A stretch of DNA of 54,593 nt from a virus. The position numbers and the translations under genes are program-made. The notes beneath the pieces are model-generated. The model was not told where the DNA came from. It made no database searches and saw nothing but the letters and a program-made list of their open reading frames with translations. The stretch covers positions 1-54,593 of IMG/VR virus record IMGVR_UViG_3300035698_029165, one strand, 5' to 3'. This document shows positions 24,715 to 49,159 of this stretch, piece by piece; within the stretch, counting starts at the first letter, position 1, and each line of letters starts with the position of its first letter.

Positions 24715-25052
24715 TTATATTTCTTCTCCATTACTGCAATTTCCTCATCAAGAACATCCAAACGAGTATGATTGCCTTGCTGCAAAATGTTAAACACTTC
24801 GTGCAAGGTTTCATTACCTTTAATTGTACCCATCATCGTCTGAGTGTGCTGAGCTCGTTGTAGAATAGCCTTTTTCTCTGCCTTTTTTTTTGCCAAAAGG
24901 GTTATTTCAGAGGGGGTGTCCTTGGTATCCTTAATGACAGTAACCAAATGCTGAAGGATAACAGAATCATCCCTATCTGAAACCCATTGCACCAGATTGT
25001 GCATTAATACCTGCCATGATAGCTCACACGATTGGGGTGGGTAGTTTTTCAT
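24708..25052 (-). CDS. unknown helical protein (114 aa)
   Basis: All-helical, Lys-rich in the middle (LLAKKKAEKKAILQRAQ) with a C-terminal segment LDVLDEEIAVMEKKYK that looks like a short coiled coil. Its ATG overlaps the DNA polymerase stop (ATGA), so it is translated after polymerase. A replication accessory role is possible from position only. Confidence 0.5.
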   Translation of the reverse strand: MKNYPPQSCELSWQVLMHNLVQWVSDRDDSVILQHLVTVIKDTKDTPSEITLLAKKKAEKKAILQRAQHTQTMMGTIKGNETLHEVFNILQQGNHTRLDVLDEEIAVMEKKYKC

Positions 25053-28000
25053 GTTATATGCTCATTAGCTAATGTCCCAAATGTGGACGGGTTAATTAAA
25101 ATTGTCCCATACTCTTTTTCCATAGCCAGCACTTTACCATCTACCGTCAGGACATGAAGAATTCGTGTCCCTTTGTTTTTACACAGGTTGATGACATGGG
25201 CCAGCTGAAACAAAGTTCCTAATGTAAGAGGCTTATGTAATTGATATTTAAAAACACTCCCTGACGGGATGGTTGTTTTCGGGGGTTCCAGGTTTTTTGG
25301 GTTAATATCTATCACAGGGGCAACTGGTGTTACTGGTGTTACTGGTACTGCTTTTACAGGGTTCTCAGGTTCAAGTACTATGTCTATTTTTTGTTGCACA
25401 GCACCGTCAGGTATTGGCTGCGTGACTACAGGATCAGATTCAGGGTTGAAAAAAGGACGGAGGGTATCTGGCCATGTTTCCATATCATCCCAGTTATAAT
25501 TTTCAGGAATATCTTTTGGTTTGTAGAATTTCTTGTCCCCGATGAATCGAATCTCTTTGTATTTGATAGCATTTATATCCCAAGGGACTGTCCAGTTGAC
25601 ACCTATCTCTACATCTGTTGTCAATGGTATCGGCCATTTCTGGGATAGAATCATAGGGTTTCGGCACATTATGGGGTTGATGACCGCAATGGCTTCTTCT
25701 AAAACATCTAGGTCGATTTCAAACACGAGTTCATCATGCATTGTAATAATCATCTGAACCTTGTCCAGCCAACCACGTTTGTTGCATTCATTGTAGACAA
25801 GACCCATAGCAATCTTAGTTATATCAGCCGAAGTATTATGGACAATTAACCCATCACACGAAAAGGCGTGTAAATTATCCAAGACTTCAACATCATACAT
25901 GTTGATAGTTTGGTTAAGGTCTTTTTTATCCGTAACGAAACACCAATCATATGTTAAAGCATCCTGGATTTCTAAAGGCAATTCAGGATTACCATAAAAT
26001 TCCAATAACCGCAGACACTGACTTTTACTACCTAAACCTGCTACCAAACGTAAAACAGCAATTTGTTTGGTACTACCAGAAGATATACTATATTTTTTAA
26101 GGATTTTCCCAATAGAGGTTACAATATTATATGGAAACACCATCTCCCTACCCGTATGTGGCCTCAGTGGGTCTGCTGCAACCCAATCACCATTAATTAA
26201 ATCACCTTGTGGAACCCACTGAAAGGAATCACCCCGCCATACATAAAATAAATGTTCGGGGCTTGTTAAAATAGAATTTCCATCGTTAAAAAACGTTTTC
26301 TGGACTGCTTTCTTTCCTGAGAATAAAGGTCTGGCATGTTCCCATTTTTTTCCTGTCCACACTTCAAAAGATTTCTCGGCATCCCATAAATCTTTAACTT
26401 TTTGTAAACCTTGTTTTGTGGGTACCTGACAATCGGGGTGTAAACATCCTTGAATTGGACCATTAATGGCATTTCGTTCAGCCTTGGAACGGAACCCATT
26501 ATCCGCATGATTAATATCAGGTAAAGGGTATCGTCGTCTAAAAGCGGTCACGACAAAACCCTGTTGTCGAGCAAAGGCATGTTGAGAATCCCACCAGTTT
26601 TTTAAAGTCCTGTAAGTTCCATCGAACTGCCGTTTCAGTCGGTTGCCTTCATTCCTGTCTACACCAGCAGCACGTTGAGCAGCGAGACCACTTCCCCCGT
26701 AACAAAGCGCAAAGTTTAAGCTGTTATGAGATATGACACCAGATGTCCAATATAGATGATCATCCGACTCAACATGTAAATCCATACAGGGCATTTCTTC
26801 TGCTGGGATAATATGCATCACCTTATTAGGAAGACTCGTTCCGGTCTTTCGGTTATGTATCCGCCTGATTTTACCTGGGTGTTTTAGATAAGGTTTAAAA
26901 TACGGAGCTTGTGACCCCGATACTTTAATTCGGTAATACCATTTAGAATAAGTTTTATTCCAAGAAGCCTCACAATACGGAAGAACCCCAACAAATTGTA
27001 ACACAGATGCAATCTGCCCTGCAAAAACAGCATCTTTTGTTGTTACAGATAATATACCATCACGTTTACCTACAGTGCCATCTGTGTCAAACAGCCCTCC
27101 AAGAAACCACATAATAGCTTTTCTACCGTTCCCCAAAACCCAATCAGGAATACGTAATGAGCGTTTCCCACTATCATTGTCTGTGGGGTTTATTAAACCT
27201 AATGATGTAAAAATTCTCATTACATGGCGACTATCAATATATATACTTTGTTTTTTTGGTTTAGGGGAAAATCCAGCATCTTTACAAACACCAACAAGGA
27301 TATTTTGCCACTCTTTATAAGAAATCCCCATTTTATCTGTCTTGGATATATCTCCATGACATAAGGACACTGAATTAGTCCCAGCTTTCGACCCATCACC
27401 TGAAAAAGCTCCTGCAAGGTAAGCTATATGACAGTTAGTATTAATATTCATTTCTGGGAAATCTTTTAAAGGTTTTACCTTAACAGATTTCCACGATGTA
27501 GAGGGCATTGTTAAAGGTTTTGAAGGTTCCGATAGTAAAACTCCCTTTGATAACCCTGTAGTTATGGATTTTAAAGTCCCATCTACCGTTTCAATTCGAT
27601 GTTTGTTGGAACAGGTTAATATCCCTCGACGAGTAATGATATGGTACAGTTTCTTAATTCCTCCATTGTACGTCTCTGTTATCGGTATTTCTTTATGCCC
27701 ATTCCAAACTTTCCACTTACTATTAACTTTTCTAAAAGTATTTATATCACCAATTGGGAAAAATCCAATTCTACGTGGCACAGTACCAGATAGACCAGAA
27801 CTAACTGATATAATACTGTCTGGATGAATACATTTTGCCTTACCTCTGTATTCTTTCCAATCAGGGTTTGCCTGAATCTCTTTACCATACACACTGATAC
27901 CAGTCAATGTATGCAAGTCGCCAATTTTATCAGAGCCACAGTTTGGACATCGGGCAGGAGGTGGTTCAGGAGTACAAGTACCATCACCATGGTCGAATGT

Positions 28001-29650
28001 ACGATCACAACCAGCACAGTGGAAGAATTCAGATAACCACAAAGGTTCCCGTGACAGGTTCGTGACAAGCCTAAGCTCCACGCCTGAATAATCAATTGCC
28101 ACGATAACACGGTCAGGACGACGCACCGTAATACATTCTCGAAGTCTTTGCATACATTCAGGACGCTGAGTACCTCCTGATCGGGGGAGAGCTTGCATAT
28201 TAATGGCAGGCCAACCAACCATGTAATTGGCACTCTTGGATGATATCTCTTTGGTTGGGGTGCTGAACCTTCCTGTGTCTACCTTGTGACCTTGGAAGTT
28301 CACTCGTATTGTATCATCTAAGGGGTCGGAATCATTAAACATAGGGTATAGGTAAGTGGATAAGGCTTTATTTATTTCACGGAATCGTTTAATTTTACTC
28401 ATAAATGGGAACTGCTTCCCAGCTTCTTCAATGATTCGGTCAAGTTCGTCTTTAGAAGTTTTAATCTGCCCTGACTTCTCTGTCCTCTTGAGTCCTTGAA
28501 CCCCCATATCCTCGAACATGTTGCCAAGTTGTTTAGCAGCATTCACATCGTATATGGGAGGCCATTTTTTCCCTGTGGCATCTATGACTTGAGTTACAGG
28601 GTCAGGATACTCTTGTTTTGCCTTTCCTGTAGCTACTTTCAACTGTTCTTTAATGGACAAATGTGGATTGTCTGCTATAAAAGATTCTTGCAGATTTTTA
28701 TAACAACCTGGCATAATGTCCCTGTTCAGAATAGCTTGGGCTTCAGCATATACATCCATGATAGATGTATACCATTCCTTATGGCCAACTTGGATAAGTT
28801 CCCCAAGTTTCTCTTTGTCCAGATGAATTCGGTTACGTTCCATCCAACGTGTGGCTGCCACACACTGTTTCTCTATTTTATAAACGGTTACTTGATCAAA
28901 TCCATGTGCAGGTTTCAGAATATCAGGGGCCAAAATATCATACAGAAGTCTGGTGCAAATACCATCACCGCCACCATACCATAATGTGGAAGGTTCTTCA
29001 GGATCCAACAAGGAGAAATCTTTATCCGTTACTCGAACCCTACCTTTGGCATCTTTCTCGTCAGGGAGGAGTTCCTTCAATTCCAACATTTCGATGCCCA
29101 AGAGCTGCTTGGACAAAGCCTTCAAACCCTTCTGCCGACGGCGTGAGTCTGACAGGTATGCAAGGATAAGAGTATCATCCCACATGTACGTTTTGTCCCA
29201 CGTCCCAAAAGGTTCACCCCCCCAGTAATTCAAGAACTCATGGTCAAATTTACCGTTGTGGAAAACAGCTGCCGTTTGTTTCTCTTCCGTAGCTGTAATA
29301 AGGCGTCGGAAAGCTTTCTCAAACACACCCCACGGAACATTGCTGGGGTATCGAACCTGTGTGTTGTTAATCTTCACTTCAACATGATTTAATGGTATAT
29401 AATAACCTGTGATTCCATCAGGGGATAAACAAACACCTACTAAGCGGTCAACAGTTTTCAGCACACCACCGTGGTCTAAAACTCGGTTATCTAAACCCGT
29501 CGTCTCCACATCCAGAGCATACCTATAGGAATTGATACAGTGATCCATAATCTCGTCGATGTTATCAACAGTCCCAAGAATGAATTTCTTCGTCTTCATC
29601 CATTCCTTTTCTTGGATTGCATCACCGTCACCAATCTGAAAATCTTCCAT
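25049..29650 (-). CDS. polA-like: family A DNA polymerase with proofreading domain and two inteins
   Basis: Replicative polymerase. The 3'-5' exonuclease motifs are intact: DVETTG (Exo I, residues 47-52), FHNGKFDHEF (Exo II, around 130) and YGGGD (Exo III, 225-229). Polymerase motif A is DYSGVELR (520-527). The O-helix RGKAK/SLNFALCYGG is split by intein 1, N-x-PIQG/TSAD is split by intein 2, and motif C is HDEL (1305-1308). No 5' nuclease is present. A CAGC...CPNCG zinc-ribbon insert lies between motif A and the O-helix (545-571). After the core comes a Pro/Val-rich linker and a C-terminal domain of about 70 residues. The ATG at 29650 sits 7 bases after GGAGG; another ATG six bases earlier is too close. 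It must splice twice to be active. Confidence 0.93.
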   Translation of the reverse strand: MEDFQIGDGDAIQEKEWMKTKKFILGTVDNIDEIMDHCINSYRYALDVETTGLDNRVLDHGGVLKTVDRLVGVCLSPDGITGYYIPLNHVEVKINNTQVRYPSNVPWGVFEKAFRRLITATEEKQTAAVFHNGKFDHEFLNYWGGEPFGTWDKTYMWDDTLILAYLSDSRRRQKGLKALSKQLLGIEMLELKELLPDEKDAKGRVRVTDKDFSLLDPEEPSTLWYGGGDGICTRLLYDILAPDILKPAHGFDQVTVYKIEKQCVAATRWMERNRIHLDKEKLGELIQVGHKEWYTSIMDVYAEAQAILNRDIMPGCYKNLQESFIADNPHLSIKEQLKVATGKAKQEYPDPVTQVIDATGKKWPPIYDVNAAKQLGNMFEDMGVQGLKRTEKSGQIKTSKDELDRIIEEAGKQFPFMSKIKRFREINKALSTYLYPMFNDSDPLDDTIRVNFQGHKVDTGRFSTPTKEISSKSANYMVGWPAINMQALPRSGGTQRPECMQRLRECITVRRPDRVIVAIDYSGVELRLVTNLSREPLWLSEFFHCAGCDRTFDHGDGTCTPEPPPARCPNCGSDKIGDLHTLTGISVYGKEIQANPDWKEYRGKAKCIHPDSIISVSSGLSGTVPRRIGFFPIGDINTFRKVNSKWKVWNGHKEIPITETYNGGIKKLYHIITRRGILTCSNKHRIETVDGTLKSITTGLSKGVLLSEPSKPLTMPSTSWKSVKVKPLKDFPEMNINTNCHIAYLAGAFSGDGSKAGTNSVSLCHGDISKTDKMGISYKEWQNILVGVCKDAGFSPKPKKQSIYIDSRHVMRIFTSLGLINPTDNDSGKRSLRIPDWVLGNGRKAIMWFLGGLFDTDGTVGKRDGILSVTTKDAVFAGQIASVLQFVGVLPYCEASWNKTYSKWYYRIKVSGSQAPYFKPYLKHPGKIRRIHNRKTGTSLPNKVMHIIPAEEMPCMDLHVESDDHLYWTSGVISHNSLNFALCYGGSGLAAQRAAGVDRNEGNRLKRQFDGTYRTLKNWWDSQHAFARQQGFVVTAFRRRYPLPDINHADNGFRSKAERNAINGPIQGCLHPDCQVPTKQGLQKVKDLWDAEKSFEVWTGKKWEHARPLFSGKKAVQKTFFNDGNSILTSPEHLFYVWRGDSFQWVPQGDLINGDWVAADPLRPHTGREMVFPYNIVTSIGKILKKYSISSGSTKQIAVLRLVAGLGSKSQCLRLLEFYGNPELPLEIQDALTYDWCFVTDKKDLNQTINMYDVEVLDNLHAFSCDGLIVHNTSADITKIAMGLVYNECNKRGWLDKVQMIITMHDELVFEIDLDVLEEAIAVINPIMCRNPMILSQKWPIPLTTDVEIGVNWTVPWDINAIKYKEIRFIGDKKFYKPKDIPENYNWDDMETWPDTLRPFFNPESDPVVTQPIPDGAVQQKIDIVLEPENPVKAVPVTPVTPVAPVIDINPKNLEPPKTTIPSGSVFKYQLHKPLTLGTLFQLAHVINLCKNKGTRILHVLTVDGKVLAMEKEYGTILINPSTFGTLANEHIT
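25835..26446 (-). other. mini-intein (204 aa) in DNA polymerase
   Basis: Begins CLHPDCQVPTKQGLQKVKDL, with Cys at polymerase residue 1069, and ends GLIVHN (His-Asn, residue 1272), followed by extein Thr. Block B is visible as GNSILTSPEHLFYVW and the C-terminal block as MYDVEVLDNLHAFSCDG. No LAGLIDADG motif is present, so it is a splicing-only form. It interrupts the conserved PIQGT sequence of family A polymerases. Confidence 0.88.
26723..27832 (-). mobile_element. LAGLIDADG intein (370 aa) in DNA polymerase
   Basis: Begins CIHPDSIISVSSG (Cys at polymerase residue 607) and ends GVISHN (residue 976), followed by extein Ser. Block B is LTCSNKHRIETV. Two LAGLIDADG motifs are present, AYLAGAFSGDG and WFLGGLFDTDG, so a homing endonuclease is encoded. 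It splits the O-helix (RGKAK/SLNF), where incoming nucleotide is bound. Confidence 0.92.
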
Positions 29651-29671
29651 ACACATTCCTCCTTCTAGATA

Positions 29672-30118
29672 TTACCCCAAACTGAATTCTTCACCTTCAA
29701 CTAGAATCACATGTCTACCCTCAACCCAAGCCAGTATAACAGTTGCCATAGCCTCCGAATCTTCCGAACTTACCCAGGAGGGTTCAAAACAGGCAGGCAA
29801 TTTAGGGCATGGGAAACACACATTGGTATCATATAGGATACAGGATTTAGACATCTGACATGTTCTGTATTTCTCTGGAATCTGTTTTAATAAGCCATGG
29901 GGATATGGACCAATCTCATTCATCAATGGAGTGATATAACCATGCATGGCATTAGAGAATGCTTCACCTGAAACTACAGGGATAAGTTTACCTATGGGAG
30001 TGTTCTTGAGAGAAACTATATCCCCCCAGATGTCACCGTTTAATGGAATTGGGCGTAGCACAAGAATCTGACCCCATTCCAGACTATCCAGACTGAACCT
30101 GTTCAGATGTTCCAACAT
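29672..30118 (-). CDS. unknown Cys-cluster protein (148 aa)
   Basis: Middle region holds seven Cys in 30 residues (CQMSKSC, then CFPCPKLPACFEP), suggesting a metal or iron-sulfur site. The N-terminal 60 residues are beta-like. The C-terminus ends GRHVILVEGEEFSLG. It overlaps the primase-like gene by 35 bases, with AAAAGGCTTACA before the ATG, and ends 22 bases before the polymerase start. The position suggests a replication-linked protein; the function is unknown. Confidence 0.55.
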   Translation of the reverse strand: MLEHLNRFSLDSLEWGQILVLRPIPLNGDIWGDIVSLKNTPIGKLIPVVSGEAFSNAMHGYITPLMNEIGPYPHGLLKQIPEKYRTCQMSKSCILYDTNVCFPCPKLPACFEPSWVSSEDSEAMATVILAWVEGRHVILVEGEEFSLG

Positions 30119-30722
30119 TGTAAGCCTTTTTTATTTCTTCATGTAGTTTCTCCAACAATTTTTGGATAACTGCACGTCCTTTTATTTCGGTTATGAGTTC
30201 CTTCTGAACCAGATACTCCATTTGATCGGAACCTTCCCAGAATGCTGCTGTGCTTTTCACAGACAATGTTCGATCTATGGTTTCTGCTGTCAACACTGAT
30301 CGGAATATCCGAAGGTCATCTTCCAGAGTTTTATCAGGAAATTTTAAACTTTCTTGGATTTCCTGCTCGGGTTTAGGAGTAGAATCATAATCCCCTTCTT
30401 CCCATGGCACAGTAGGCAGGTTGTACCGAGTCTCCAAAATGCTGATAGCTTCCATGAAACTAACACCTTCTTTAACTTTAACGGTATCAACTCCATCACG
30501 GACTACACCACAGGCAAAACAAAACCAAGAAGCTGTATCAGGATATAACCGAGCTGATGGCTTATTATCATGCCCATCACCATGTAGATCACAGGGAAAT
30601 TGTTCTTCTCGGTCTTCACCATCGGTTCTGACAGGGTAACCATAGTCGAACAAAATCTGGGCAATAGGGATCAACTCTTTAATTTGATCCAGTCTTTTTC
30701 TTGTACGAGGGTTATCTACCAT
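30084..30722 (-). CDS. CHC2-type primase zinc-finger protein
   Basis: Residues 44-71 give the DnaG-type CHC2 zinc finger: C44, H47, C68 and C71 (PCDLHGDGHDNKPS, then WFCFACG), followed by EGVSFMEAISILETRYNL. This is the template-reading domain of bacterial and phage primases. The remaining 110 residues are helical, and no TOPRIM catalytic motif (EGxxD, DxD) is seen. The protein is therefore either half of a split primase or a DNA-binding relative. It starts at TGATG, one base into the previous stop, and lies just upstream of polymerase. Confidence 0.78.
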   Translation of the reverse strand: MVDNPRTRKRLDQIKELIPIAQILFDYGYPVRTDGEDREEQFPCDLHGDGHDNKPSARLYPDTASWFCFACGVVRDGVDTVKVKEGVSFMEAISILETRYNLPTVPWEEGDYDSTPKPEQEIQESLKFPDKTLEDDLRIFRSVLTAETIDRTLSVKSTAAFWEGSDQMEYLVQKELITEIKGRAVIQKLLEKLHEEIKKAYNVGTSEQVQSG

Positions 30723-31465
30723 CAGAGTTTTGCCCTATCCCCGTTACAAAGTACTGTTAAAAATGGAAGCTGCCCATCTGTAGGATGTTTATAATAGGTC
30801 TCCCCACAAATTTCACAAATACAATCTCCAGAAGCTTGGATGTAATCGGGAGTTGCCTGAATCTGTTTAAAAAACCGAGACACATACCCTTCATTAGCTT
30901 GGCTAGTAGTCCTACAAACCCCATAACTACTGAAAGCTACACGTTTTACGCCTTTTTTCATAGAGTTCATATGACCGCTTTTAGTGATACCTACCGTTTC
31001 GTTCAAATAACTGATAGGACAACCATCCCAACACTCCCACTGTTCTACCGTTTCCATCCCATTCTCATCTGAATACCCCCGTCGAGTGGCATCCGTTGGA
31101 CGGAACCTCCACAGGTCTTTAGAAGTCCGACCGCCATCACCATCTGGCCGTGTGTCTACTCTGTTACCAGGGATTTCCCTGAAACCTAAATTTCGACACT
31201 GAGGTTTATGTTCAAAAACAATGTTAGATGGGAACCTGCCTTTTACATGAGGTTGAGATTTCCATTCACGCATATCAGGGGAGCTGTTGAACATCCGATC
31301 ATCTCGGACAGTAGCATTACAGGTTCCCCAGACACCTGAACCCAATGGCCCTCTTACACGACTTACACGACTTTCATCAAGATTAAGCCCACCAGTACCC
31401 CACTGGATTACATTGTCCACCACAGAACTGTTTATGGGCTTTCTAGCTATGGTTATAACTATCAT
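30722..31465 (-). CDS. orphan methyltransferase middle module (247 aa)
   Basis: Corresponds to the middle section of large phage amino-methyltransferases, not to a whole enzyme. Signatures are VITIARKPINSSVVDNV, then GTGGLNLDESRV, GRFPSNIVFEHKPQC, METVEQWECWDGCP and YVSRFFKQI. A C-terminal CICEICGETYYKH zinc motif is added. It contains neither a catalytic DPPY/TSPPY nor a DPFxGSG SAM motif, so it cannot act alone. The same module is fused to a C5 methyltransferase at 34.8-37.4 kb and is decayed at 33.1-33.5 kb. It overlaps the preceding methyltransferase gene (ATGA). A target-recognition or partner subunit is a plausible role. Confidence 0.65.
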   Translation of the reverse strand: MIVITIARKPINSSVVDNVIQWGTGGLNLDESRVSRVRGPLGSGVWGTCNATVRDDRMFNSSPDMREWKSQPHVKGRFPSNIVFEHKPQCRNLGFREIPGNRVDTRPDGDGGRTSKDLWRFRPTDATRRGYSDENGMETVEQWECWDGCPISYLNETVGITKSGHMNSMKKGVKRVAFSSYGVCRTTSQANEGYVSRFFKQIQATPDYIQASGDCICEICGETYYKHPTDGQLPFLTVLCNGDRAKL

Positions 31466-32301
31466 TGATCACACTTATTAGGGATAAGAAACTCTAATCC
31501 TTTTTCAAACTGCTTTTGTTCCTGACTATATTTAAGTCTTTCTTCACAAATTTCACAGTATTCACTAGAAATCTCACTTCCAATATAATTTCTTTCATTC
31601 AATAAAGACATTTTAGCGGTAGTTCCAGACCCCATGAAGGGATCATAAACTAAACTCCCTTTATTACCCCAAGAAAGGATATGATCATTAGCTAACTGCT
31701 CAGGAAACATAGCAGGATGCCCTAGAGCACATGTATCTAATGTTGTTTTATTATGGCCATTACGGATTTCCCAAATATTAAAACGGGAGCCCCATTCCTT
31801 TAACATATTTTGTTTATTATGTCTTATCTGTTCCCCCTCAGCATTCCTATAATGACCTTTTATAGATTTTTTTCCATTGAAACATTTGTTTTTTCTGTCT
31901 TTAATGCAATTAAATACTTGCGGGGTACCCTTAGAAAACACAAACATATACTCAAAAACATTTGAATATCTATTTGTTTCTGGGAATGCAATTTTACCCT
32001 TGTGATATATCATTGTATCATGGATATTAAATCCACATTCCTTGAAATACAAAGCTTGTTTAAAAGATGTTCCTGTTTCACTACCCTTAACCGTAGCATC
32101 CCCCACTACCCAAACTACAACACCACCCTCTTTTGTAACCCTAAATAACTCTTTAGCTATTTTCTCAAAATTAAAAGTGTAATCATTATATGTTCTAAGG
32201 TTATCATAAGGGGGAGAGGTAACTACTAGATCTACAAAATTATCAGGCATCCTTAACATAGTATCAAGGCAATCCTCATTATAAATTTTATTTATTTCCA
32301 T
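31462..32301 (-). CDS. DNA amino-methyltransferase, tandem copy 2
   Basis: Beta-class amino-methyltransferase of 279 aa. TSPPY is at residues 28-32, and YDPFMGSGTTAKMSLLNERN lies near residue 230. The middle holds its own target-recognition region (GRYSN-type NRYSNVFEYMFVFSKG). The first 40 residues and the last 80 are almost identical to the next gene upstream, so the two arose by tandem duplication; the middle differs, which may change target sequence. The ATG at 32301 is chosen because GGAG lies 6 bases upstream; it overlaps the previous gene by 14 bases. Confidence 0.88.
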   Translation of the reverse strand: MEINKIYNEDCLDTMLRMPDNFVDLVVTSPPYDNLRTYNDYTFNFEKIAKELFRVTKEGGVVVWVVGDATVKGSETGTSFKQALYFKECGFNIHDTMIYHKGKIAFPETNRYSNVFEYMFVFSKGTPQVFNCIKDRKNKCFNGKKSIKGHYRNAEGEQIRHNKQNMLKEWGSRFNIWEIRNGHNKTTLDTCALGHPAMFPEQLANDHILSWGNKGSLVYDPFMGSGTTAKMSLLNERNYIGSEISSEYCEICEERLKYSQEQKQFEKGLEFLIPNKCDQ

Positions 32302-33121
32302 CAGGTTCTCCAAATAAAAAGTCTAAACCTGATTCTTGAGTTATTTGATCCCTTACTTTCTCTAACCGTAGGTCACAGATTTCACAGTAATCACTAGAGA
32401 TTTCACTCCCGATATAATTCCTTTCATTCAGTAAAGACATTTTAGCGGTAGTCCCTGATCCCATAAAGGGATCATAAACTAAATCCCCTTTATTACTCCA
32501 AGAAAGGATATGGTCATTAGCTAATTGTTCAGGGAACACAGCAGGATGGATAGTTTTACTTGAACCCCTGGATACTATCCAGACATTAAACCTTCGGGAA
32601 TATTCTTTTACTGTCCTAGTTTCCCCCGTATACCTTCGGTCTTCTTTACAAGAACGGGTTTCTCTTTTAGAGGATTGGCCAAAACTTTTATTCTTTCGGT
32701 CTGCTAACAGATTTAATGTTTTAGGTTTCCCCTTAGAGAATACAAACATATACTCAAACACGTTGTAATACCTACCCTCTGTAGGGGCTTGGGGTGAGGG
32801 CTTTTCCCATATCATAGTATCATAGAGATCAAAACCTGCCTCTTTAAAGTATAATGCCTGATTAAAGGATGTTCCTGTTTCACTACCCTCTACCGTAGCA
32901 TCACTAACAACCCAAACTACAACACCACCCTCTTTTGTAACCCTGTGGAGGTCATCAATAAGAGGTTTCCAAACATGCTCGCCCCATGATAAACCAATAC
33001 CTGAATTATATGTTCTAAGGTTATCATAAGGAGGACTTGTGACAGTCAGGTCAACAAAGTTATCAGACATCCTTGCCATTGTATCAAGGCAATCCTCATT
33101 GTAAATTTTATTTATTTCCAT
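32288..33121 (-). CDS. DNA amino-methyltransferase, tandem copy 1
   Basis: Beta-class amino-methyltransferase of 277 aa with TSPPY at residues 28-32 and YDPFMGSGTTAKMSLLNERN near residue 230. It is a paralog of the gene downstream: both ends match closely while the target-recognition middle differs (EKPSPQAPTEGRYYNVFEYM here). The ATG at 33121 is preferred to the upstream GTG because AGGTGG lies 5 bases before it. It follows directly on the decayed middle module, so the original arrangement was probably module then methyltransferase. Confidence 0.88.
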   Translation of the reverse strand: MEINKIYNEDCLDTMARMSDNFVDLTVTSPPYDNLRTYNSGIGLSWGEHVWKPLIDDLHRVTKEGGVVVWVVSDATVEGSETGTSFNQALYFKEAGFDLYDTMIWEKPSPQAPTEGRYYNVFEYMFVFSKGKPKTLNLLADRKNKSFGQSSKRETRSCKEDRRYTGETRTVKEYSRRFNVWIVSRGSSKTIHPAVFPEQLANDHILSWSNKGDLVYDPFMGSGTTAKMSLLNERNYIGSEISSDYCEICDLRLEKVRDQITQESGLDFLFGEPDGNK

Positions 33122-33499
33122 CACAACCACCTAAAATAACTATCACTGACCATCTGATTCAGATAATAAATCAGACATCCGTTCACACACTCCCATGTTT
33201 CCACGGTCTCCACACCACCACTTCAGCACTCAGGTTTATGTTCGAAGATCATGTTGGAAGGGAACCTGCCTTTGTCGTGGGGTTCACTTTTCCAGGCTCT
33301 CATCTCAGGCTCTCATCTCAGGGGAGCCATTGAACATCCGATCTGATCGAACCGTAGCATTGCTCGTGCCCCAGACTCAGGCTCCCTGGGTGCCCTGTAT
33401 GTGGCTCTCGTCAATATTGAGGCTACCAATACCCCATTGGACGATATTGTCCACTACAGCCCCACGTATGGGCTTCCTGGCTACGGTAACGACGATCAT
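33121..33499 (-). pseudogene. decayed methyltransferase middle module
   Basis: A broken relative of the 247-aa orphan module. From an intact ATG at 33499 (overlapping the previous stop) it reads MIVVTVARKPIRGAVVDN, then SLNIDESHI, and hits a stop. Homology resumes in other frames: VWGTSNATVRSDRMFNGSP, GRFPSNMIFEHKPEC, then ETVETWECVNGCLIYYLNQM. A 13-bp tandem duplication (AGGCTCTCATCTC on the plus strand, about 33296-33321) causes one frame change, and further short deletions shorten the middle. It is not expected to make a working protein. Confidence 0.85.
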
Positions 33500-33774
33500 T
33501 GACCACACTTCGTCTTGATTTCCTCACACGTATTGATGGTCTTCAAACATTGTGGATTCAAGGAGTGTCCACACTCCTGAGTTTCGACACAGAACTGCAC
33601 ACAGGTCGGCCCATCAGGGATGTCTTCCCCTTCAGGACAGAACAGCTGCTTCATCCTGTCACAGGCTGCCGGACAGGATGATGTTCCCTGCGGCTCGATG
33701 GGCATTGGTGGGGGTGTTAATTTACATGACACTACCAACATTAGAACAATAATTATGATTAGTAAATTTCTCAT
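33496..33774 (-). CDS. Cys-rich lipoprotein (92 aa)
   Basis: A signal peptide with lipobox, MRNLLIIIIVLMLVVSC, puts the lipidated Cys at residue 17. The mature part has eight further Cys residues in a CPAACDRMKQLFCPEG, CVQFCVETQEC, CLKTINTC, KC pattern, likely disulfide-bonded in the periplasm or on the outer membrane. Such short lipoproteins are common in Myxococcota. The ATG at 33774 follows GGGAGGAAATAAA and overlaps the protease stop. Expression during infection could alter the cell surface. Confidence 0.72.
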   Translation of the reverse strand: MRNLLIIIIVLMLVVSCKLTPPPMPIEPQGTSSCPAACDRMKQLFCPEGEDIPDGPTCVQFCVETQECGHSLNPQCLKTINTCEEIKTKCGQ

Positions 33775-34541
33775 TTTATTTCCTCCCACGGGGCGGTGAT
33801 AGTCCAGATGTCACGGGTTTCCCCCCATTTGATATAATCCTTGTCCATCAAGTAGAATCCATTATCTCCCCAATTTTGGCCCCAGCTGTTTTCACCAATA
33901 AATTTACCGTCTTGGTACCCAACCAAAACAGTTGCATGTCGGCCTGTAGTGTCATCAGGTTTAGACAATACATCACCAGTTCGATATTTATTCCAGTTTT
34001 TACCCGTAGCCGTCCCAAATACTACAGGGTTGCCAGCATTGAGACATTGAATAATATTCTCCACCCTGTCATTACCAGAGGATTTGATTCTGTAGAAAGC
34101 CTCAATCTTATGCTGGTAGGCTTTACACATAGCCAACCATGGAGGTGTTTGATTGATATTCTCAATGACAAAGGGCCAATCTGCATCAGGACACACTCCC
34201 CACCGACGGAGTACATCACAAGCCAAGGAAATGTAAGTCCCACTATCTTCCCCTGTTTGTTGAGGGAATTGGAGTTCCCTGGCCAGATAATAAATGGCCA
34301 TAATAGACAATTCTACATGAGCATCATGGCCATATTTCATGATCCGTTTGAGTTCCAGTGCTTTAATGACAGCATGACCCACACAGGAACTTGTCCTGCG
34401 TTGGTTTTGTGGTGGGGAGGAGAACTCTCGAAGGTCTACATCATCTGTCCTAGCCTCAAGCCTGGGTTTCAATTTGTCTTCAAATACCCAATGCTTGTCA
34501 CTGAAGGGTTCAGGGATATACCCATTCATTTTAATAGCCAT
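33771..34541 (-). CDS. papain-like cysteine protease (C1 family)
   Basis: Papain-type protease. Catalytic Cys in QNQRRTSSCVGHAV (about residue 53), His in TTGRHATVLVGY (about 203) and Asn in GENSWGQNWGDNGFY (about 218) are all present. The Gln oxyanion residue (QNQR) precedes the Cys. At 256 aa it has no recognisable propeptide or signal peptide, so it would act in the cytoplasm unless released at lysis. The ATG at 34541 follows TAGGAGGATATT. The gene is coupled to the downstream Cys-rich lipoprotein. Possible roles are processing of phage proteins or degradation of a host protein. This family is uncommon in phage replication regions. Confidence 0.82.
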   Translation of the reverse strand: MAIKMNGYIPEPFSDKHWVFEDKLKPRLEARTDDVDLREFSSPPQNQRRTSSCVGHAVIKALELKRIMKYGHDAHVELSIMAIYYLARELQFPQQTGEDSGTYISLACDVLRRWGVCPDADWPFVIENINQTPPWLAMCKAYQHKIEAFYRIKSSGNDRVENIIQCLNAGNPVVFGTATGKNWNKYRTGDVLSKPDDTTGRHATVLVGYQDGKFIGENSWGQNWGDNGFYLMDKDYIKWGETRDIWTITAPWEEIK

Positions 34542-34558: not shown

Positions 34559-34819
34559 TTAATTTAGCATAGAGGGTTTATAATTTGGATTCCATCGGAT
34601 ATGTTCCTGCCCTTCATCTTTTTCCAACATGCCTATCTCCAACATTTCATAAAGGGCTGTGTAAAGCATATCACTGAAAGGATTCGATGACCAGAACAAA
34701 TCCTTAATTTTCTGGGGACTTCCTTTTTCATCAAGTACAACCCCTAACACAATGGCAAGTTCATGAGATGCTACATCCATGCCACCCCAGTCAACTAACC
34801 GTTCCTTCAATGTTTTCAT
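34559..34819 (-). CDS. unknown small protein (86 aa)
   Basis: Helical, acidic protein with WGGMDVASHELAIVLGVVLD and a C-terminal Trp/Asn segment (IRWNPNYKPSMLN). The ATG overlaps the C5 methyltransferase stop codon. The fold could be a winged helix (MLYTALYEMLEIGMLEKDE resembles a recognition helix plus wing), but this is weak. Function unknown. Confidence 0.5.
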   Translation of the reverse strand: MKTLKERLVDWGGMDVASHELAIVLGVVLDEKGSPQKIKDLFWSSNPFSDMLYTALYEMLEIGMLEKDEGQEHIRWNPNYKPSMLN

Positions 34820-41583: not shown

Positions 41584-41588
41584 GGATT

Positions 41589-41692: not shown

Positions 41693-41702
41693 TATCTGGC
41701 AT

Positions 41703-42956
41703 TTAATCCTCCACATCCCATAAATCAATAGGTTCTTGTTCAACAATTTCTGGTTTATAGTCGGATTCAATCAACCGAGGAATGTACCCCTGTTCGCTGT
41801 CCCAATATCTAATTCGGGAGGTTGAAATCCCAACGTAATCTTCTTCACTATCTACCCCAATGAAATCATGACCTGTCTGTATACATGCAATCCCCGTTGA
41901 GCCACTTCCCATAAAAGGATCAAGAATTGGCCCATTAGCCACAGGCACATCGTCCAACAAACGTTCCATTAATTTAATGGGTTTTACCGTATTGTGGCTC
42001 ATACCTATACAAGTTTGAAAAGTGGGTGAGCCTTCCACAGAAAGATTCATCACATCTCCAGTATAAGGAACAAGCTTAATTGATTCTACACATCTAAGTA
42101 CATACCCAACTCCTTCGTGTACATACCCAACTCCTTCATATCCCGTGTAAACAGGTTCCTTTTCCGTATCAAATAAAGAAAGAGGGGTCATTGTATAATC
42201 CCCTTTCCTAATATCTTTTGCTTCAATCCAATTAACACTACCCCCAATAGGAATCTGTTTTCTGTCGGGTCTCCAAATCAAGTATGGGTGGTTGTCAGAT
42301 GAGGGGGCAGTATGATTTGTCCCTTGGATATGAATATCATACAAATGAGTGGATGTATACAGATGTCGACTAACGTCAGATACGGCATTAAATTCCCCAT
42401 TTGCACTAAACACCCTGTCTCCAATTTCTATCTCTTTTATAGGATGGTAACCCTTTATAGTCATCACTAATGTATCTGGATGTAAACATGGATGGAAATT
42501 CTTAATTGGATTTACACCTCTATTCCGAGGATTGTCATCTCCAGGATTCCCTTCCTTACGACCACAGTTACGTTGTTGAGAATTAATAGAATAACACCCA
42601 GCCTCCCGTTCAGACCGGGAAGCCTTGGGTACATAATGGAAATGGCCAGCTTCTCTCACCCAAAGGATAGCATCACGGATATCAAAACCTGCATCCTCAA
42701 TCCTACAAGTTCCAGTATGCCCTGTTGGTTCTGATTCTGGTGCTACCAATAGTAAATGAGCACCAGGCATCAAAATTCTTTTCAGATCTGCTGCCTGTTC
42801 CTCAGTTGGTTGACCAACAGCAATGACTCCAGGCCAGGAGTTATCTTTTTTTTCCCCAACTTCCCAGGTACTAATATCAGATATATACAAAGCCTGCATA
42901 TAAGGAGTGGATATTAAAGTTGTAAGATAATCTAATAGTTCTTGTGGTATTTTCAT
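41703..42956 (-). CDS. phage DNA methyltransferase (C-terminal type) with mini-intein
   Basis: 417 aa. The first part has LKRILMPGAHLLLVAPESEP, DAGFDIRDAILWVREAGHFH and PKASRSEREAG, typical of a family of phage site-specific methyltransferases. Next comes NFHP/TVKPIKLMERLL, split by a mini-intein, then the SAM motif LDPFMGSGSTGIA. No DPPY or TSPPY catalytic motif is visible, so activity may need a partner or a degenerate motif IV. The ATG at 42956 has only a weak ribosome site. The frame stays open to 43115 and encodes GDSGGASRFFKC, the end of the middle module found elsewhere in this window, inside the helicase gene overlap. Splicing is needed to join the two conserved halves. Confidence 0.8.
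   Translation of the reverse strand: MKIPQELLDYLTTLISTPYMQALYISDISTWEVGEKKDNSWPGVIAVGQPTEEQAADLKRILMPGAHLLLVAPESEPTGHTGTCRIEDAGFDIRDAILWVREAGHFHYVPKASRSEREAGCYSINSQQRNCGRKEGNPGDDNPRNRGVNPIKNFHPCLHPDTLVMTIKGYHPIKEIEIGDRVFSANGEFNAVSDVSRHLYTSTHLYDIHIQGTNHTAPSSDNHPYLIWRPDRKQIPIGGSVNWIEAKDIRKGDYTMTPLSLFDTEKEPVYTGYEGVGYVHEGVGYVLRCVESIKLVPYTGDVMNLSVEGSPTFQTCIGMSHNTVKPIKLMERLLDDVPVANGPILDPFMGSGSTGIACIQTGHDFIGVDSEEDYVGISTSRIRYWDSEQGYIPRLIESDYKPEIVEQEPIDLWDVED
41991..42488 (-). other. mini-intein (166 aa) in the methyltransferase
   Basis: Begins CLHPDTLVMTIKGYHPIKEI, block B SSDNHPYLIWRP, ends IGMSHN followed by extein Thr. No LAGLIDADG motif. A 21-bp tandem duplication near 42105-42145 encodes EGVGYVHEGVGYV. 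Residues before and after are NFHP and TVKP, a conserved motif in this methyltransferase type. Confidence 0.88.
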
Positions 42957-43068
42957 GTTTATGTTTTCTCTCAAGCATTTGAAAAAACGAGAGGCTCCAC
43001 CAGAATCCCCATAATAATCAGGATTGTGGTCGAATGCAGCAGTGGCTTTCTGGCCAAAGAAATCACTC

Positions 43069-44718
43069 TCATAAACTATCCAGTATCTCCGCCGTTTTGT
43101 CAACTTCGTCTCCAACCACTTGATTCTGATTTGAAGTCATTGGCATATCGAAACATGTCAAAAGACGACGACATGGCCATTCAACACGAGCCAAAAACAT
43201 CTCAAAAGGTTTTTGGTCACGGGATTTTAAACATTGAAACTGAACTCTGTTAGCAGAAATAAGATCCTCGTCAATCCAAGAAGACGTAACAATGTCAGCA
43301 GAACGCTCACATTCATTTGCATAGCTCAAAGCTGTCACATCATATCGAGCTGCTCCTGTCTTCTCTTTAATCTTCATTGCTGACCGCATACCCTCACGGC
43401 TGATTTGAAATAACCCCACAACAGCAATACCTTCACCTCGATTAAACGACATTGCCAATTTTTTAGTATCCCGAATGATTTCATTATCCCTGTCAGTACG
43501 GCTGGCCACCCATTTACGAGGGGAAAGCAAACTCACATGGTCAATGACAATCATTCTGAAGGAACTCTTGGAATAGATAAGTTCAGCCTTCTGCCGAAGG
43601 TTATCCATAGTGAAATCCATCCTGTTCGGATCAGCAACTTCGATATGGATTTTCCCATAGTCTATTGGTTTTGGATAAGGTTTACCCATCTCATCCACAG
43701 TACAACTCAAAATATCCTTAGTCACAGGGTCATGATACTTTTTCCCTGTCAAAGGGCATGTATCCACATCTATGGACTTGCCATTAAAATCAGGTACCAC
43801 GTAATCAAATAGAAACCTTTTTGCATTAACATGATGCCTATCCAAGGTACCATCACGAAGATTCTCATACTCTAAACCAACAGTATCTGCAGGGGACGAT
43901 TGAAGCCCTAAGTAGTACCTGATCAATCTGAATTTGGGGTGGCTTGAATGAATAGCGTACAGAAGATTCCTGCACTGCTCGTAAGGCATCTCCAAACTGA
44001 ATAATAAACTGGAATGTAGATGATAGATGGCTTGATTATATATCCAATTCAAAGCCCAAGTACTCTTCATGCCTCCTGTAAAAGCAGCATGAATCCACAA
44101 TTCAAATTTTCTAGCCCCGTTAGTAGCAACATCAATTTGAGTCAATCCTGTATGTTGGCCTATTCCAGCTAAAGGGTCAGCCTCGACACGTTCATAACGG
44201 CGTGTGAAATCTTCACCATCCTGAGTTACTTCACCTGAGAGCCGAGAGCCTGTCACAGGAGCTACTACGGCATGACTTTTTTCCAGAAAATAGTGAACCG
44301 AATCCATTGGACCCTTCAACATCTTCTTATCACGACCTTTTCTAATCTCCAATCCCGTTGTCAGGATTGTACCGACATCTTTCATCAATTCCGTGACTTC
44401 TCGAATACGACGTTCCTCTGCTTTCACTCCAAGTCTGGTGTCAAAATCACCCTGGGAAAACCCCTTAATGTTCTCCAACACTCGCAGACGTTCAAGGACA
44501 GTATCCTCACCGGTTCTGGAAAAATGGGTTTGCAAAGTGCTGATGTCAGGAACATGGTTATGAGCTCTGATAAACTGTTTCACAAATTCCCAAATGACCA
44601 CATCTTCAGGAAGGTCAAATTGTAAGCCTGAATCATCGAGTTTTATGTAGTTTCGTAAAAAAAGGTCAAGATTGTCCCCTGGTGCAGCAATAAACGTTGA
44701 ACGCAATAATGTTTTCAT
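43069..44718 (-). CDS. dnaB-like: DnaB-like replicative helicase
   Basis: 549 aa. Residues 1-150 are a helical N-terminal domain. The RecA-like ATPase follows, with ELWIHAAFTGGMKSTWALNW (Walker A, Lys218), SLLFSLEMPYEQ, FRMIVIDHVSLLSP (Walker B) and VVGLFQISREG (motif with Gln). This layout matches DnaB family C-terminal domains. The Walker A reads GGMKST, so Met stands where Gly normally precedes the Lys. It would unwind DNA at the fork. The ATG overlaps the stop of the candidate loader gene (ATGA). Confidence 0.85.
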   Translation of the reverse strand: MKTLLRSTFIAAPGDNLDLFLRNYIKLDDSGLQFDLPEDVVIWEFVKQFIRAHNHVPDISTLQTHFSRTGEDTVLERLRVLENIKGFSQGDFDTRLGVKAEERRIREVTELMKDVGTILTTGLEIRKGRDKKMLKGPMDSVHYFLEKSHAVVAPVTGSRLSGEVTQDGEDFTRRYERVEADPLAGIGQHTGLTQIDVATNGARKFELWIHAAFTGGMKSTWALNWIYNQAIYHLHSSLLFSLEMPYEQCRNLLYAIHSSHPKFRLIRYYLGLQSSPADTVGLEYENLRDGTLDRHHVNAKRFLFDYVVPDFNGKSIDVDTCPLTGKKYHDPVTKDILSCTVDEMGKPYPKPIDYGKIHIEVADPNRMDFTMDNLRQKAELIYSKSSFRMIVIDHVSLLSPRKWVASRTDRDNEIIRDTKKLAMSFNRGEGIAVVGLFQISREGMRSAMKIKEKTGAARYDVTALSYANECERSADIVTSSWIDEDLISANRVQFQCLKSRDQKPFEMFLARVEWPCRRLLTCFDMPMTSNQNQVVGDEVDKTAEILDSL

Positions 44719-45626: not shown

Positions 45627-45628
45627 TA

Positions 45629-48600
45629 TCAACCTCCACGAGCATCTGAAAGTAATCCACTGAAAATATCCGAAATATCATTAGATACTTCAATAACGGA
45701 TACGTCATTCTCACCTTTGAAGCGTTTTCCCAAAACGGTTTCAATCAGGTTCATTTTCTTACCCAAAACACCCATAACTCGTTTGTCAATCGTAGCTCCA
45801 TGCATATGACTACTGGCTACCAAATGAAGGGCATAGCAGGTATCATGAACACTCCCTATACGAATCATCCGACCGACCAACTGGATGAAATCACCCGCTG
45901 ACCAAGGTGTGTCATAACAAATAAGAGCCTTAGCTGCCTGAAGATTGATGGCATCTGAACCAGCCATCGTAATACAAGCTACCCGTACATCAGAGTTCGG
46001 GTCCTGAAAGGCTGCCTTGGCTGCCTCACGTTGATCCTCATCCTCAGAACCTGTGATCCGAACAGCAGGTATCTTGGCTTTGGCTAACCTCGGCATAATG
46101 ATGTCCACCATCGTTCGGAACCGAGTGAAGATAATGACATTTTCTTCTGCAAAATCTCCATTAGATAGAATATCTATCAAGGTCTCCAACTTGGGTGATA
46201 AACAATCGGTTGCCCCTATTAACTCCAAGTCATTCACAATCTCCTGACAATAAATGAGGGCAGTCAATTTTGTAGTTTCCTTATCGATCAATCCATTTTC
46301 AGTCCCTATTTCCAACAAACCTTCTAGAGCTTCCTTATATTTATCATCCTGCTCGTGGGTCATCTCCACGGAGATATTCTGAATAGTCAAGGATGGCAAC
46401 TCTGAGGCCACTTCATACTTGGGACGGCCTAGAAAATATGGGGCAATTGTATTCTTGAATTCCAGAACTCGGGACTTGGTATACCCAACTATGACAGGGA
46501 CTTGACGGTTGCTTTTTGGTATTTTCTGCATCCTGGTTATACAGTAATGCTGCATGAACTGACTGGTTGACATCTGGAATAATCCTGGTACCACCACTTT
46601 ATAAATCCCGTGGCCTTCCATCAGATTGTTCTTTATGAGTGTTGCCGTCAATCCCCACACTTTGTCGGCTTGTTCTGCCAGATGTTGACAGACCTGGTGA
46701 ACCTGAGTCTTGGGGTTTTTAAATGCAGTGCAATTTGATACTAAAACACCCCCCGCAAAATAATTATGATTATCTTCAACCTCTAAATTATAAACATATT
46801 GATCTTTATCTGAGGAGGGTGGATTCCAAATAGATTTATATAGTACCCAATCAGTAATCAGTTTATTTTTTGGTGTCACATCTAAAGAATGCGGGTATTG
46901 GAGTTGTAAATAATCAGGAAATTTATACTCTACTCCAGGTAATTTATATGGCATTAAAGCTAAAAATTTACGAGCCTCTTTATCAGGAAGATAAATATGA
47001 GCTAGACATTTTTTAGAACCTGTTTTCCTATCTGACCGTTCCTTTGAGATTTTAATTTGAGCTTGTAGACCCCATTTCCAATTCAACCACCCAACTATCA
47101 ATTCCTGTTCTTCAAAAGTAAAACCCTGAGTGTGTAAAGAAATTGAATATGTAAAAGTATCATTTTTACAAAGATAGGTTGTTAAAGACCCGTCATCTCC
47201 ATACCACACAGCTAATCCTAAAACACCTACTTTATCCAACCAGTCAAAAGTCACGTGTTTTTTATTTCTCTGTCGAATCCGAGACTGTACTAACAAAGAA
47301 GTAATTCCAGCATTACCCTTTAATTGGAATCTGTTGAGAATAGATGTTTCTTTATAACCACTTTGACAAGATGTTATACCAGACACCCCTAATGATCCTA
47401 ATACCTCTTTTTTCCAGTTTAAATAAGCTGATTGTTTTTCAGACTGAATAAAACATACCCCCCATAAATTTCTGTTTGGGTGACTTATACTGGCATCCCC
47501 TAATAAACCTCCAAGTACTATTTGCATCTGATCATCAGTCGGGTAGTTATTGCATAAATACTGAACAGGGCTATCTTTTTTTAATGCTGAAGCCACACAT
47601 TCTTTATCATTAAGTTTATAATATTTATGAGTTTTTGTTACTCTAGTTTTCCCTCCAAATCTAAAAGTAAGGTGGAGTAATTTCTTACTGTTCATCTTAG
47701 TACGTATCCACCGGGTTACTTTTTTTTCTTCGATTTCACTAGTATTTAGATTCTTTGACATTACAGACACAGGTTGTTTTTGACATACAATTTTCCCAAC
47801 CAATTCCTGTGTACCGTCTGCTAAAGTGATTGGTGTGTGGTACTGGAAACATTCGTCCGCAATCAGGACATAATCCTTAAAATGCTGAAGGTGAGTGAAA
47901 TCCTGAACTGCTGACCGATAGCCCATTATCAGGACAGTTGGGCCAGTAGCTTTGGCAAAAGCTTCACGAGCTTTTGCCCGAACCTTGGGGCTGCCTTTAC
48001 AAATGACGGTCGTGATACCCTGAGTAAACTTTTGAAACTCCTGTGCCCACTGTTTAGTGGCGGATTTTGTTGTTAAAATAATAACTTTTTGGCTAGGCTT
48101 CTTTGCCCAAAGATAGCACAGTGCTCCAATAGACTCCAAGGTGTTATGATTCACGAAACCATCGGCCACAAAACAATGTTCGGGATCACTAACTTCAATG
48201 TCAGCTACGGCTTCTTCACCATCCTTAATGTTGACGATGGGATCATAGAAAAAGTTATTCTCACACAACGATTCAGTATAAGAAACATCTACCCGATTTT
48301 TAGGAGTTATAAAGCCAATCTCTTCACCAAAAATACGGGTATCGTCTCCAAATATAGTTAATTTTTTAGGACCCCTGGATGAGATAACCCCAAATCTTAA
48401 AAGTAATATCTGGATTTCCTTCAGCATTTGAATAGAAGCACTTGATACTTCAATAATGCCCTTTGTAACAGAACCTTCACAATCAAAAAAAGCACGAAGG
48501 AATGCTGCTACTGATTCACGTGTACTTTGAAAAATATGCCTGGGAATATATTGATCTTTTGAAATACTTTTATCTCGTTCTGGCACAGGTAGGGTTGGTT

Positions 48601-49159
48601 TGATCTCAGGAAACTTTGATAAAGATCTGTCTATACAGATAAAATCCCCCTCTTGAAGGTTTCTAGTCTGAATGAACTCAAAAGTACCATCAGATTTCCT
48701 GACTTTTAAAGGGTGGACTAAAGACCCAGTTGTTTCATAACCTCTACGGGTAGTTATTGTTTTAGTAGGTTTAACCCCACAATTATAAAACTTTTTAATA
48801 GATGCCCATTTTGTCCCCGTCCAAACCTGAGTAGGTTGACTGAGCGGGTAGAACGTGTCAGGTTTTAACTCAATATTAACAGGAGCCAGATCCTTTAATT
48901 GCAGTAGCCCTCGATCAGTTAAAACCCAAGTAAGAAAACTGGTGCACTTACCCAATCCAGTGTCGTCCCCTAATATGAAACGTTTCATCAACAGCAGATG
49001 GAAAATCCCCTGAACCTGATAATATCTGATATTCAACGGTTTTTCTGTCCCATCAAAATCTGTGAATGTCTCTTTCAGAAACTTGGTTGGCTTCAAAACT
49101 AAATCTTGTCGTTCACGTATACCTTTCAGCTTCTTTTGAACTTTGTCCATATTTGACAT
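45629..49159 (-). CDS. SNF2/SF2-type DNA helicase with two inteins
   Basis: 1176 aa, of which about 535 are exteins. Motifs in order: RYYQVQGIFHLLL (Q-like), Walker A GDDTGLGK/T split by intein H1, VIILTTKSATKQW (Ia), VLIADE/C (DEAD-type motif II) split by intein H2, WGLTATLIKNN (III), NVIIFTRFRTMVDI (IV), then DAINLQAAKALICYDTPWS (V) and QLVGRMIRIGS (VI). This layout is an SNF2-like or RapA-like ATPase. Both inteins sit inside the ATP-binding machinery, so unspliced protein cannot hydrolyse ATP. The ATG at 49159 is chosen for AAAAAAGGGAG upstream; the frame continues to 49216 within element B. It may act in recombination-dependent replication or fork remodelling, as T4 UvsW does. Confidence 0.88.
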   Translation of the reverse strand: MSNMDKVQKKLKGIRERQDLVLKPTKFLKETFTDFDGTEKPLNIRYYQVQGIFHLLLMKRFILGDDTGLGKCTSFLTWVLTDRGLLQLKDLAPVNIELKPDTFYPLSQPTQVWTGTKWASIKKFYNCGVKPTKTITTRRGYETTGSLVHPLKVRKSDGTFEFIQTRNLQEGDFICIDRSLSKFPEIKPTLPVPERDKSISKDQYIPRHIFQSTRESVAAFLRAFFDCEGSVTKGIIEVSSASIQMLKEIQILLLRFGVISSRGPKKLTIFGDDTRIFGEEIGFITPKNRVDVSYTESLCENNFFYDPIVNIKDGEEAVADIEVSDPEHCFVADGFVNHNTLESIGALCYLWAKKPSQKVIILTTKSATKQWAQEFQKFTQGITTVICKGSPKVRAKAREAFAKATGPTVLIMGYRSAVQDFTHLQHFKDYVLIADECFQYHTPITLADGTQELVGKIVCQKQPVSVMSKNLNTSEIEEKKVTRWIRTKMNSKKLLHLTFRFGGKTRVTKTHKYYKLNDKECVASALKKDSPVQYLCNNYPTDDQMQIVLGGLLGDASISHPNRNLWGVCFIQSEKQSAYLNWKKEVLGSLGVSGITSCQSGYKETSILNRFQLKGNAGITSLLVQSRIRQRNKKHVTFDWLDKVGVLGLAVWYGDDGSLTTYLCKNDTFTYSISLHTQGFTFEEQELIVGWLNWKWGLQAQIKISKERSDRKTGSKKCLAHIYLPDKEARKFLALMPYKLPGVEYKFPDYLQLQYPHSLDVTPKNKLITDWVLYKSIWNPPSSDKDQYVYNLEVEDNHNYFAGGVLVSNCTAFKNPKTQVHQVCQHLAEQADKVWGLTATLIKNNLMEGHGIYKVVVPGLFQMSTSQFMQHYCITRMQKIPKSNRQVPVIVGYTKSRVLEFKNTIAPYFLGRPKYEVASELPSLTIQNISVEMTHEQDDKYKEALEGLLEIGTENGLIDKETTKLTALIYCQEIVNDLELIGATDCLSPKLETLIDILSNGDFAEENVIIFTRFRTMVDIIMPRLAKAKIPAVRITGSEDEDQREAAKAAFQDPNSDVRVACITMAGSDAINLQAAKALICYDTPWSAGDFIQLVGRMIRIGSVHDTCYALHLVASSHMHGATIDKRVMGVLGKKMNLIETVLGKRFKGENDVSVIEVSNDISDIFSGLLSDARGG
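46733..47851 (-). mobile_element. LAGLIDADG intein H2 (373 aa) in the helicase
   Basis: Begins CFQYHTPITLADGTQEL (Cys at residue 437) and ends GGVLVSN (Ser-Asn, residue 809) followed by extein Cys. Block B is RVTKTHKYYKL. LAGLIDADG motifs are VLGGLLGDASI and GLAVWYGDDGSL. It splits the DExx box (IADE/CTAF). The penultimate Ser replaces the usual His, which may slow Asn cyclisation. Confidence 0.9.
48143..48946 (-). mobile_element. intein H1 (268 aa) in the helicase
   Basis: Begins CTSFLTWVLTDRGLLQL (Cys at residue 72) and ends DGFVNHN (residue 339) followed by extein Thr. Block B is TTGSLVHPLKVR. One LAGLIDADG motif, AFLRAFFDCEGSV, is visible and a second is not clear, so the endonuclease may be a half-site or decayed form. 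It splits Walker A between Lys and Thr (GLGK/T). Confidence 0.88.

Follow-up and report, generated by a model that had tools for sequence, protein, structure and literature searches.

Introduction

Mycobacteriophages carry several inteins per phage at the active centres of nucleic-acid enzymes, among them N6_N4 methyltransferases and a HepA-type helicase (Kelley et al. 2016, PMC5050341). The highest count for a phage in the literature that we compared is that of mycobacteriophage ET08, with at least five (PMC3029335). Core genes of the zeta crAss-like phages, which are rich in inteins and introns, are also densely populated by mobile self-splicing elements, with up to 14 introns but at most 3 inteins per genome (PMC7886860). 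The uncultured phage LR745208.1 (LR745208, 485 kb) has at least eight inteins, five of them within 19 kb (two in PolA and one each in DnaB, SNF2 and UvrD). Inteins within C5-cytosine methyltransferases, at the junction P/C...HN/C (a slash marks the splice junction throughout), occur in Mannheimia phage vB_MhS_587AP2, Lactobacillus phage Nyseid, Erwinia phages Yoloswag and SNUABM_5, and the contig L114.

Here we analyse the 54,593 bases of IMG/VR record IMGVR_UViG_3300035698_029165 (the window), which is the entire virus entry and a linear fragment of the genome of an uncultured phage. It holds six inteins in 23 kb, a density that had been called high in a first-pass annotation of the sequence, and rightly so: six in a 54.6-kb fragment, against at least five in ET08, stands at the high end of phage reports, although the difference from the published counts is one of degree, not of kind. 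Taking LR745208 as the reference, the Poisson probability of at least six inteins in 54.6 kb is about 3e-4 to 1e-3, which is no proof of an exceptional density because the inteins of LR745208 also cluster in the replication module. Unlike the zeta crAss-like phages, the window gave no match to group I or group II introns of Rfam.

A close parallel by site is with LR745208.1, which shares the inteins at the PolA O-helix, PolA QG/T and SNF2 Walker A, at 41-49% identity and in the same module. It differs from the window in having an intact endonuclease in the PolA I2 and SNF2 I1 counterparts, in the absence of the SNF2 I2 intein, and in further inteins in DnaB, UvrD, DnaX and RecD2. The C5-site inteins named above are homologous to that of the window from end to end, but they lie in unrelated phages and are only 22-49% identical to it (49% for L114, 30% for 587AP2). 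The closest cultured relative of the SNF2 I2 intein is the RNA-ligase intein of Pseudaeromonas phage KLEP7 (31% over the whole length), which sits in another host protein and at another site and ends in HN rather than SN.

Six inteins in four enzymes

The genes of the window include tail genes, a DnaB-like helicase, a primase-type zinc ribbon, PolA, an SNF2 helicase and several methyltransferases (MTases); no tRNA genes were found within its 54.6 kb. Exactly six inteins, all in frame and free of stop codons, lie between positions 25835 and 48946 of the minus strand, in the following four ORFs.

25049-29656, minus strand: family A DNA polymerase (PolA), 1535 aa, extein 961 aa, two inteins; Pfam DNA_pol_A 2e-49 in three stretches
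26723-27832, minus strand: PolA intein I1, 370 aa, Cys1...SHN/S, in the O-helix RGKAK/SLNFALCYGG; two LAGLIDADG motifs
25835-26446, minus strand: PolA intein I2, 204 aa, Cys1...VHN/T, in NGPIQG/TSADI; endonuclease core deleted
34816-37455, minus strand: C5-cytosine DNA methyltransferase, 879 aa, extein 535 aa, one intein; Pfam DNA_methylase 2.3e-37
35440-36471, minus strand: C5 intein, 344 aa, GGSP/C...VHN/CQGFS; two LAGLIDADG motifs
41703-43115, minus strand: N4/N6-type DNA methyltransferase, 470 aa, extein 304 aa, one intein; Pfam N6_N4_Mtase 1.7e-16, DpnA-type alignment
41991-42488, minus strand: N6 mini-intein, 166 aa, NFHP/C...SHN/TVKP; no endonuclease; Hint_2 7e-5
45629-49216, minus strand: SNF2-family helicase, 1195 aa, extein 554 aa, two inteins; SNF2-rel_dom 4.5e-19, Helicase_C 8.8e-17
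48143-48946, minus strand: SNF2 intein I1, 268 aa, in Walker A, DDTGLGK/C...NHN/TLES; one LAGLIDADG half (the first motif) lost
46733-47851, minus strand: SNF2 intein I2, 373 aa, in motif II, IADE/C...VSN/CTAFKN; LAGLIDADG_2 (I-SceI-like) endonuclease

The number was established with a profile built from 28 inteins, all from outside the window, and run on every frame of the window. Since its only matches were the N-terminal splicing regions of the six, the count is exactly six, as the first-pass annotation had read it. Pfam and NCBIfam independently mark intein or LAGLIDADG domains in ORFs of the window. Because the PHROG match of the MTase at 15686-16906 is split, a seventh intein was suspected there; the intein profile finds none.

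By sequence reading, Cys1 and the (T/S)xxH of block B are present in all six. The C-terminus is HN in five and SN only in SNF2 I2, which has a penultimate Ser, and the +1 residues are Ser (PolA I1), Thr (PolA I2, N6 and SNF2 I1) and Cys (C5 and SNF2 I2). The joined exteins align without gaps over every junction: PolA with Klenow and Taq polymerase over both, the C5-MTase with M.HhaI, the SNF2 extein with STH1/Snf2 (with STH1 over both), and the N4/N6-MTase with DpnA-type enzymes. Thus all exteins fall within the polymerase, methyltransferase and helicase families, and joining restores the O-helix K/S, QG/T, GGSP/CQ, HP/TVKP, Walker A GK/T and motif II DE/C. The insertion motifs and terminal residues given earlier for the six proved right at each junction. 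The description of nearly all sites as catalytic needs narrowing: conserved motifs are interrupted throughout, but HPTVKP and QGT are functional motifs and not strictly catalytic residues. In the C5-MTase, the catalytic Cys is itself the +1 nucleophile of the intein.

PolA I2 and N6 are the weakest two of the six by sequence evidence, and both model as intein/Hint folds. The PolA I2 model (pLDDT 70, moderate) has the GyrA intein 1am2 as its best structural match (E 1.6e-6). The AF2 model of N6 (pLDDT 82, moderate) matches the gp41-1 intein 6qaz at 8e-7, and its best matches are bacterial intein-like domains, the gp41-1 intein and the hedgehog Hint domain (E about 5e-7 to 1e-6). For the other four the Hint fold is assigned from profile matches alone. 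Together, the in-frame insertion, the splicing residues, the Hint fold and the presence or absence at the same site among relatives place the elements in class 1 (Cys1).

The contig is metagenomic and uncultured, and an assembly chimera or insertions other than inteins (introns, pseudogenes) could be imagined. The frames and splicing residues are intact, the folds are those of inteins, Rfam introns are lacking, and independent same-site copies of five of the six occur in other records; an artefact is almost certainly not the explanation.

State of the endonucleases

Both LAGLIDADG motifs are kept in PolA I1, C5 and SNF2 I2, and these three are probably still mobile. Half of the endonuclease is lost in SNF2 I1, whose same-site inteins in LR745208, G007 and G010 are longer (454-464 aa). 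PolA I2 lacks both motifs, though a helical remnant is left and can be aligned with the longer same-site copies with endonuclease in LR745208 (460 aa) and G010 (about 448 aa). N6 has no endonuclease, nor was a same-site relative with one observed. Because the endonuclease is intact, halved or gone, the six appear to have reached different points of the homing cycle.

The HP/T position of N6 is the sole one of the six sites without a known same-site counterpart in other phages. No intein was present at HP/T in 80 homologous viral loci, 75 of which read through the motif, nor in the mycobacteriophage MTases examined. The sequence HNTQKP in three MTase homologues was considered as an intein end and rejected as a natural variant.

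Relatives and empty sites

No close DNA-level match to the window was found among cultured phages. No relatives were found in GTDB genomes either, and therefore no host can be linked to the phage. Scans of viral contigs with the full-length SNF2 extein and with a PolA fragment gave zero matches, and a shorter SNF2 piece gave nine. By SNF2 and PolA, the kin of the window are environmental contigs, several of them of 200-540 kb; the phage is related to huge phages. The relatives used below are G001 (88.8 kb), G002 (536 kb), LR745208 (also W01) and G010 (213 kb), with the contigs G003-G009 as outgroups.

Inteins at the same site occur in other phages for five of the six sites. PolA I1 has counterparts in LR745208 (41%) and G003 (35%). 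LR745208 also has those of PolA I2 and SNF2 I1, G010 those of PolA I2 and both SNF2 inteins (41% for SNF2 I2, G010/L111), and G007 that of SNF2 I1. The fifth site is that of the C5 inteins. The set is not conserved among close relatives. G001 is about 84% identical to the window in SNF2, 82% in the N6 MTase and 70-80% in the C5 MTase at the protein level, and its DNA shows empty sites for SNF2 I1, SNF2 I2, N6 and C5, all four that could be shown. The flanks of these sites are about 71-79% identical in DNA and abut within a few bases, with no drop in identity close to the sites. G002 is without both PolA inteins, both SNF2 inteins and N6 (five of the five showable). No empty PolA gene nearer than about 50% identity was found.

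All six inteins have GC and GC3 below those of their own extein (GC3 0.24-0.30 versus 0.32-0.43). In the relatives, too, intein GC and GC3 are below those of the extein, and the intein GC tracks that of the phage which carries it; this speaks for inteins that have long resided in compositionally similar phages rather than for ones newly arrived from those sampled. The same-site inteins of the window, LR745208 and G010 differ from one another roughly as much as their exteins do. With roughly host-like GC and extein-like divergence, a recent transfer among the sampled phages finds no support, and the inteins may have been resident for long and been lost from G001 and G002.

These last two observations are what would be expected if the ancestor of the clade was already intein-bearing and G001 and G002 lost their inteins by recombination with intein-free alleles. 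This would, however, demand that G001 alone, after its split from the window phage, underwent no fewer than four separate precise losses, at sites where the flanking identity is undiminished, and more losses in G002 and the outgroups. We consider vertical inheritance with losses rather unlikely, yet a serious rival as regards the history of the elements, not their nature.

Ancestry of the splicing domains

A tree of the splicing domains (136 columns, and thus indicative) divides the six among three clades. PolA I1, PolA I2 and SNF2 I1 group with inteins of DnaB, TerL and RNR (bootstrap 94), the families of PolA I1 and SNF2 I1 being sisters (bootstrap 100). C5 and N6 group with other MTase and NrdD inteins (bootstrap 88), and SNF2 I2 with inteins of RecD2, RNA ligase, T5-like polymerase and DnaX (bootstrap 95). 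Trees had been proposed as a check on shared ancestry: some of the inteins share clades, but the six did not arise from one origin by recent copying.

Transposition of the inteins from one another within the genome might account for the two sister families, for PolA I2 in the same clade and for the shared clade of C5 and N6. However, same-site inteins cluster in the tree, and five of the window inteins are each nearer to a same-site copy in another phage than to any other intein of the window. Recent intragenomic copying is therefore excluded, leaving only ancient jumps between sites, if any, that predate the split of these phages, and we regard such local spread as the source of the six as scarcely credible. 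In the third clade, the SNF2, RecD2 and DnaX inteins all lie at DE/C (motif II/Walker B) of very different ATPases and all end in SN/C, a lead suggesting that inteins may have jumped from one ATPase to the equivalent motif of another, non-homologous one.

Dependence on splicing and its possible regulation

Given where the inserts lie (in Walker A, motif II and the O-helix, and at the catalytic Cys), it can soundly be inferred that the four enzymes should depend on splicing. The wider claim, that DNA synthesis, remodelling and methylation all do so, is too broad, as the DnaB-like helicase (43069-44718) and at least three MTases (15686-16906, 31462-32313 and 32288-33130) are uninterrupted.

The inteins might be kept since slow or conditional splicing delays or couples the polymerase, the remodeller and the methylases during infection. 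All six are placed so that the enzyme should lack activity until spliced, three of them retain the splicing residues with the endonuclease partly or wholly lost, and the P-loop intein of M. smegmatis DnaB is a known oxidation-sensitive switch (PMC6195587). Since the enzymes would not function at all unless splicing is kept, however, the intactness of the splicing residues says nothing for regulation. Moreover, a relative with about 84% identity in SNF2, G001, does without all four testable inteins and G002 without the five showable ones, and a common sensor is made less likely by the division into three unrelated clades and by the mixture of +1 residues. Such gating of the replication module is very improbable, and the coordinated conditional control suggested earlier found no support: the patchy, site-specific distribution is that of homing elements. 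It is equally improbable that a clade-wide replication module is run through splicing (two inteins each in PolA and SNF2, with DnaB, UvrD, DnaX and RecD2 in a relative) and that the splicing rate has come to act as a timing or stress gate on phage DNA replication that outlasts the decay of the endonuclease.

Homing as the likely route

The six are, with high probability, ordinary inteins of the class 1 type with Cys1, which would have entered conserved motifs of phage DNA enzymes through homing driven by their endonucleases, in cells co-infected by related phages. We infer splicing, endonuclease activity, inactivity of the enzymes before splicing and the route of entry alike. Each precursor would be translated whole, and the intein would excise itself and join its flanks by an acyl shift at Cys1, transesterification to the Cys, Ser or Thr at +1 and cyclisation of the Asn, the motif of the enzyme being complete only afterwards. 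Homing, together with the need for exact removal, may explain why the inteins persist. The genes of the replication module are presumed to be essential, conserved and shared, so that homing sites would persist in them and a hotspot would form. The window looks like such a homing-driven hotspot in a phage replication module, its inteins like mobile passengers of three lineages and not like one control system.

The finding presents a phage replication module as an intein hotspot in a group that counts genomes of 200-540 kb among its members. With its empty sites and all stages of the endonuclease, it offers a natural series for the entry, the decay and perhaps the retention of inteins in essential viral enzymes. 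In the C5-MTase, a single Cys would serve both splicing and methyl transfer, and the enzyme would thus be unable to work unspliced.

Other features of the replication region

The C5 methyltransferase of the window (34816-37455) carries an additional domain in its N-terminal 250 amino acids (GGLNIDACRI..GRFPSN..GGASRYFK). Since this domain is common to window ORF 30722-31465 and to N6 methyltransferases of other phages, e.g. Polka14 gp65, the C5 enzyme is a fusion of methyltransferase pieces. At the contig end of an 88.8-kb close relative, G001 (L109, G001:C1:84900-88796), the C5 methyltransferase occurs three times in tandem; all three copies lack the intein, and an internal TAG was reported in one match. 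The window PolA (25049-29656) contains a small zinc-ribbon-like insertion (CAGC..CPNC; extein residues ~545-591) immediately upstream of the O-helix region, matching TIGR02605 (E = 0.0024). A papain-family cysteine protease gene is also located within the replication region.

Repeats and protease gene of the window
33771-34541, minus strand: papain-family cysteine protease (Peptidase_C1, 1.9e-13)
10982, 12414, 13962, 53440, 54172: 60-nt repeat
7517, 16943, 41586, 49208, 52326: 31-nt repeat (43 nt more in 3 copies)
11031-12413, minus strand: gene built of 69-bp repeats
54316-54593, plus strand: gene built of 69-bp repeats, cut by the contig end

Both short repeat families are mostly intergenic, and could possibly be promoter or processing elements. 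The 69-bp repeats of both genes encode 'LSEEFIREFQDKVDW' units.

Inteins in related phages

Apparent split inteins were found in a virion-type gene of two related phages, at different insertion sites:
L126 (213-kb contig G010, G010:C1:43500-47600), 1182-3539
L127 (485-kb phage W01, W01:C1:354500-360500), 208-2621

In each, an N part of ~34 amino acids is followed by a separate endonuclease ORF, DUF559/Vsr-like or TnsA-like, and then by the C part with the C-extein, a 'fractured gene' arrangement.

The DE|C site (Walker B/motif II) is occupied by inteins in DnaX, RecD2 and SNF2 (L103 and L104 of W01; window 46733-47851; L111 of G010). These inteins are related and all end in the C-terminal junction SN|C, which suggests that they have moved from one ATPase to another at corresponding motifs, even though the ATPases themselves are not homologous.
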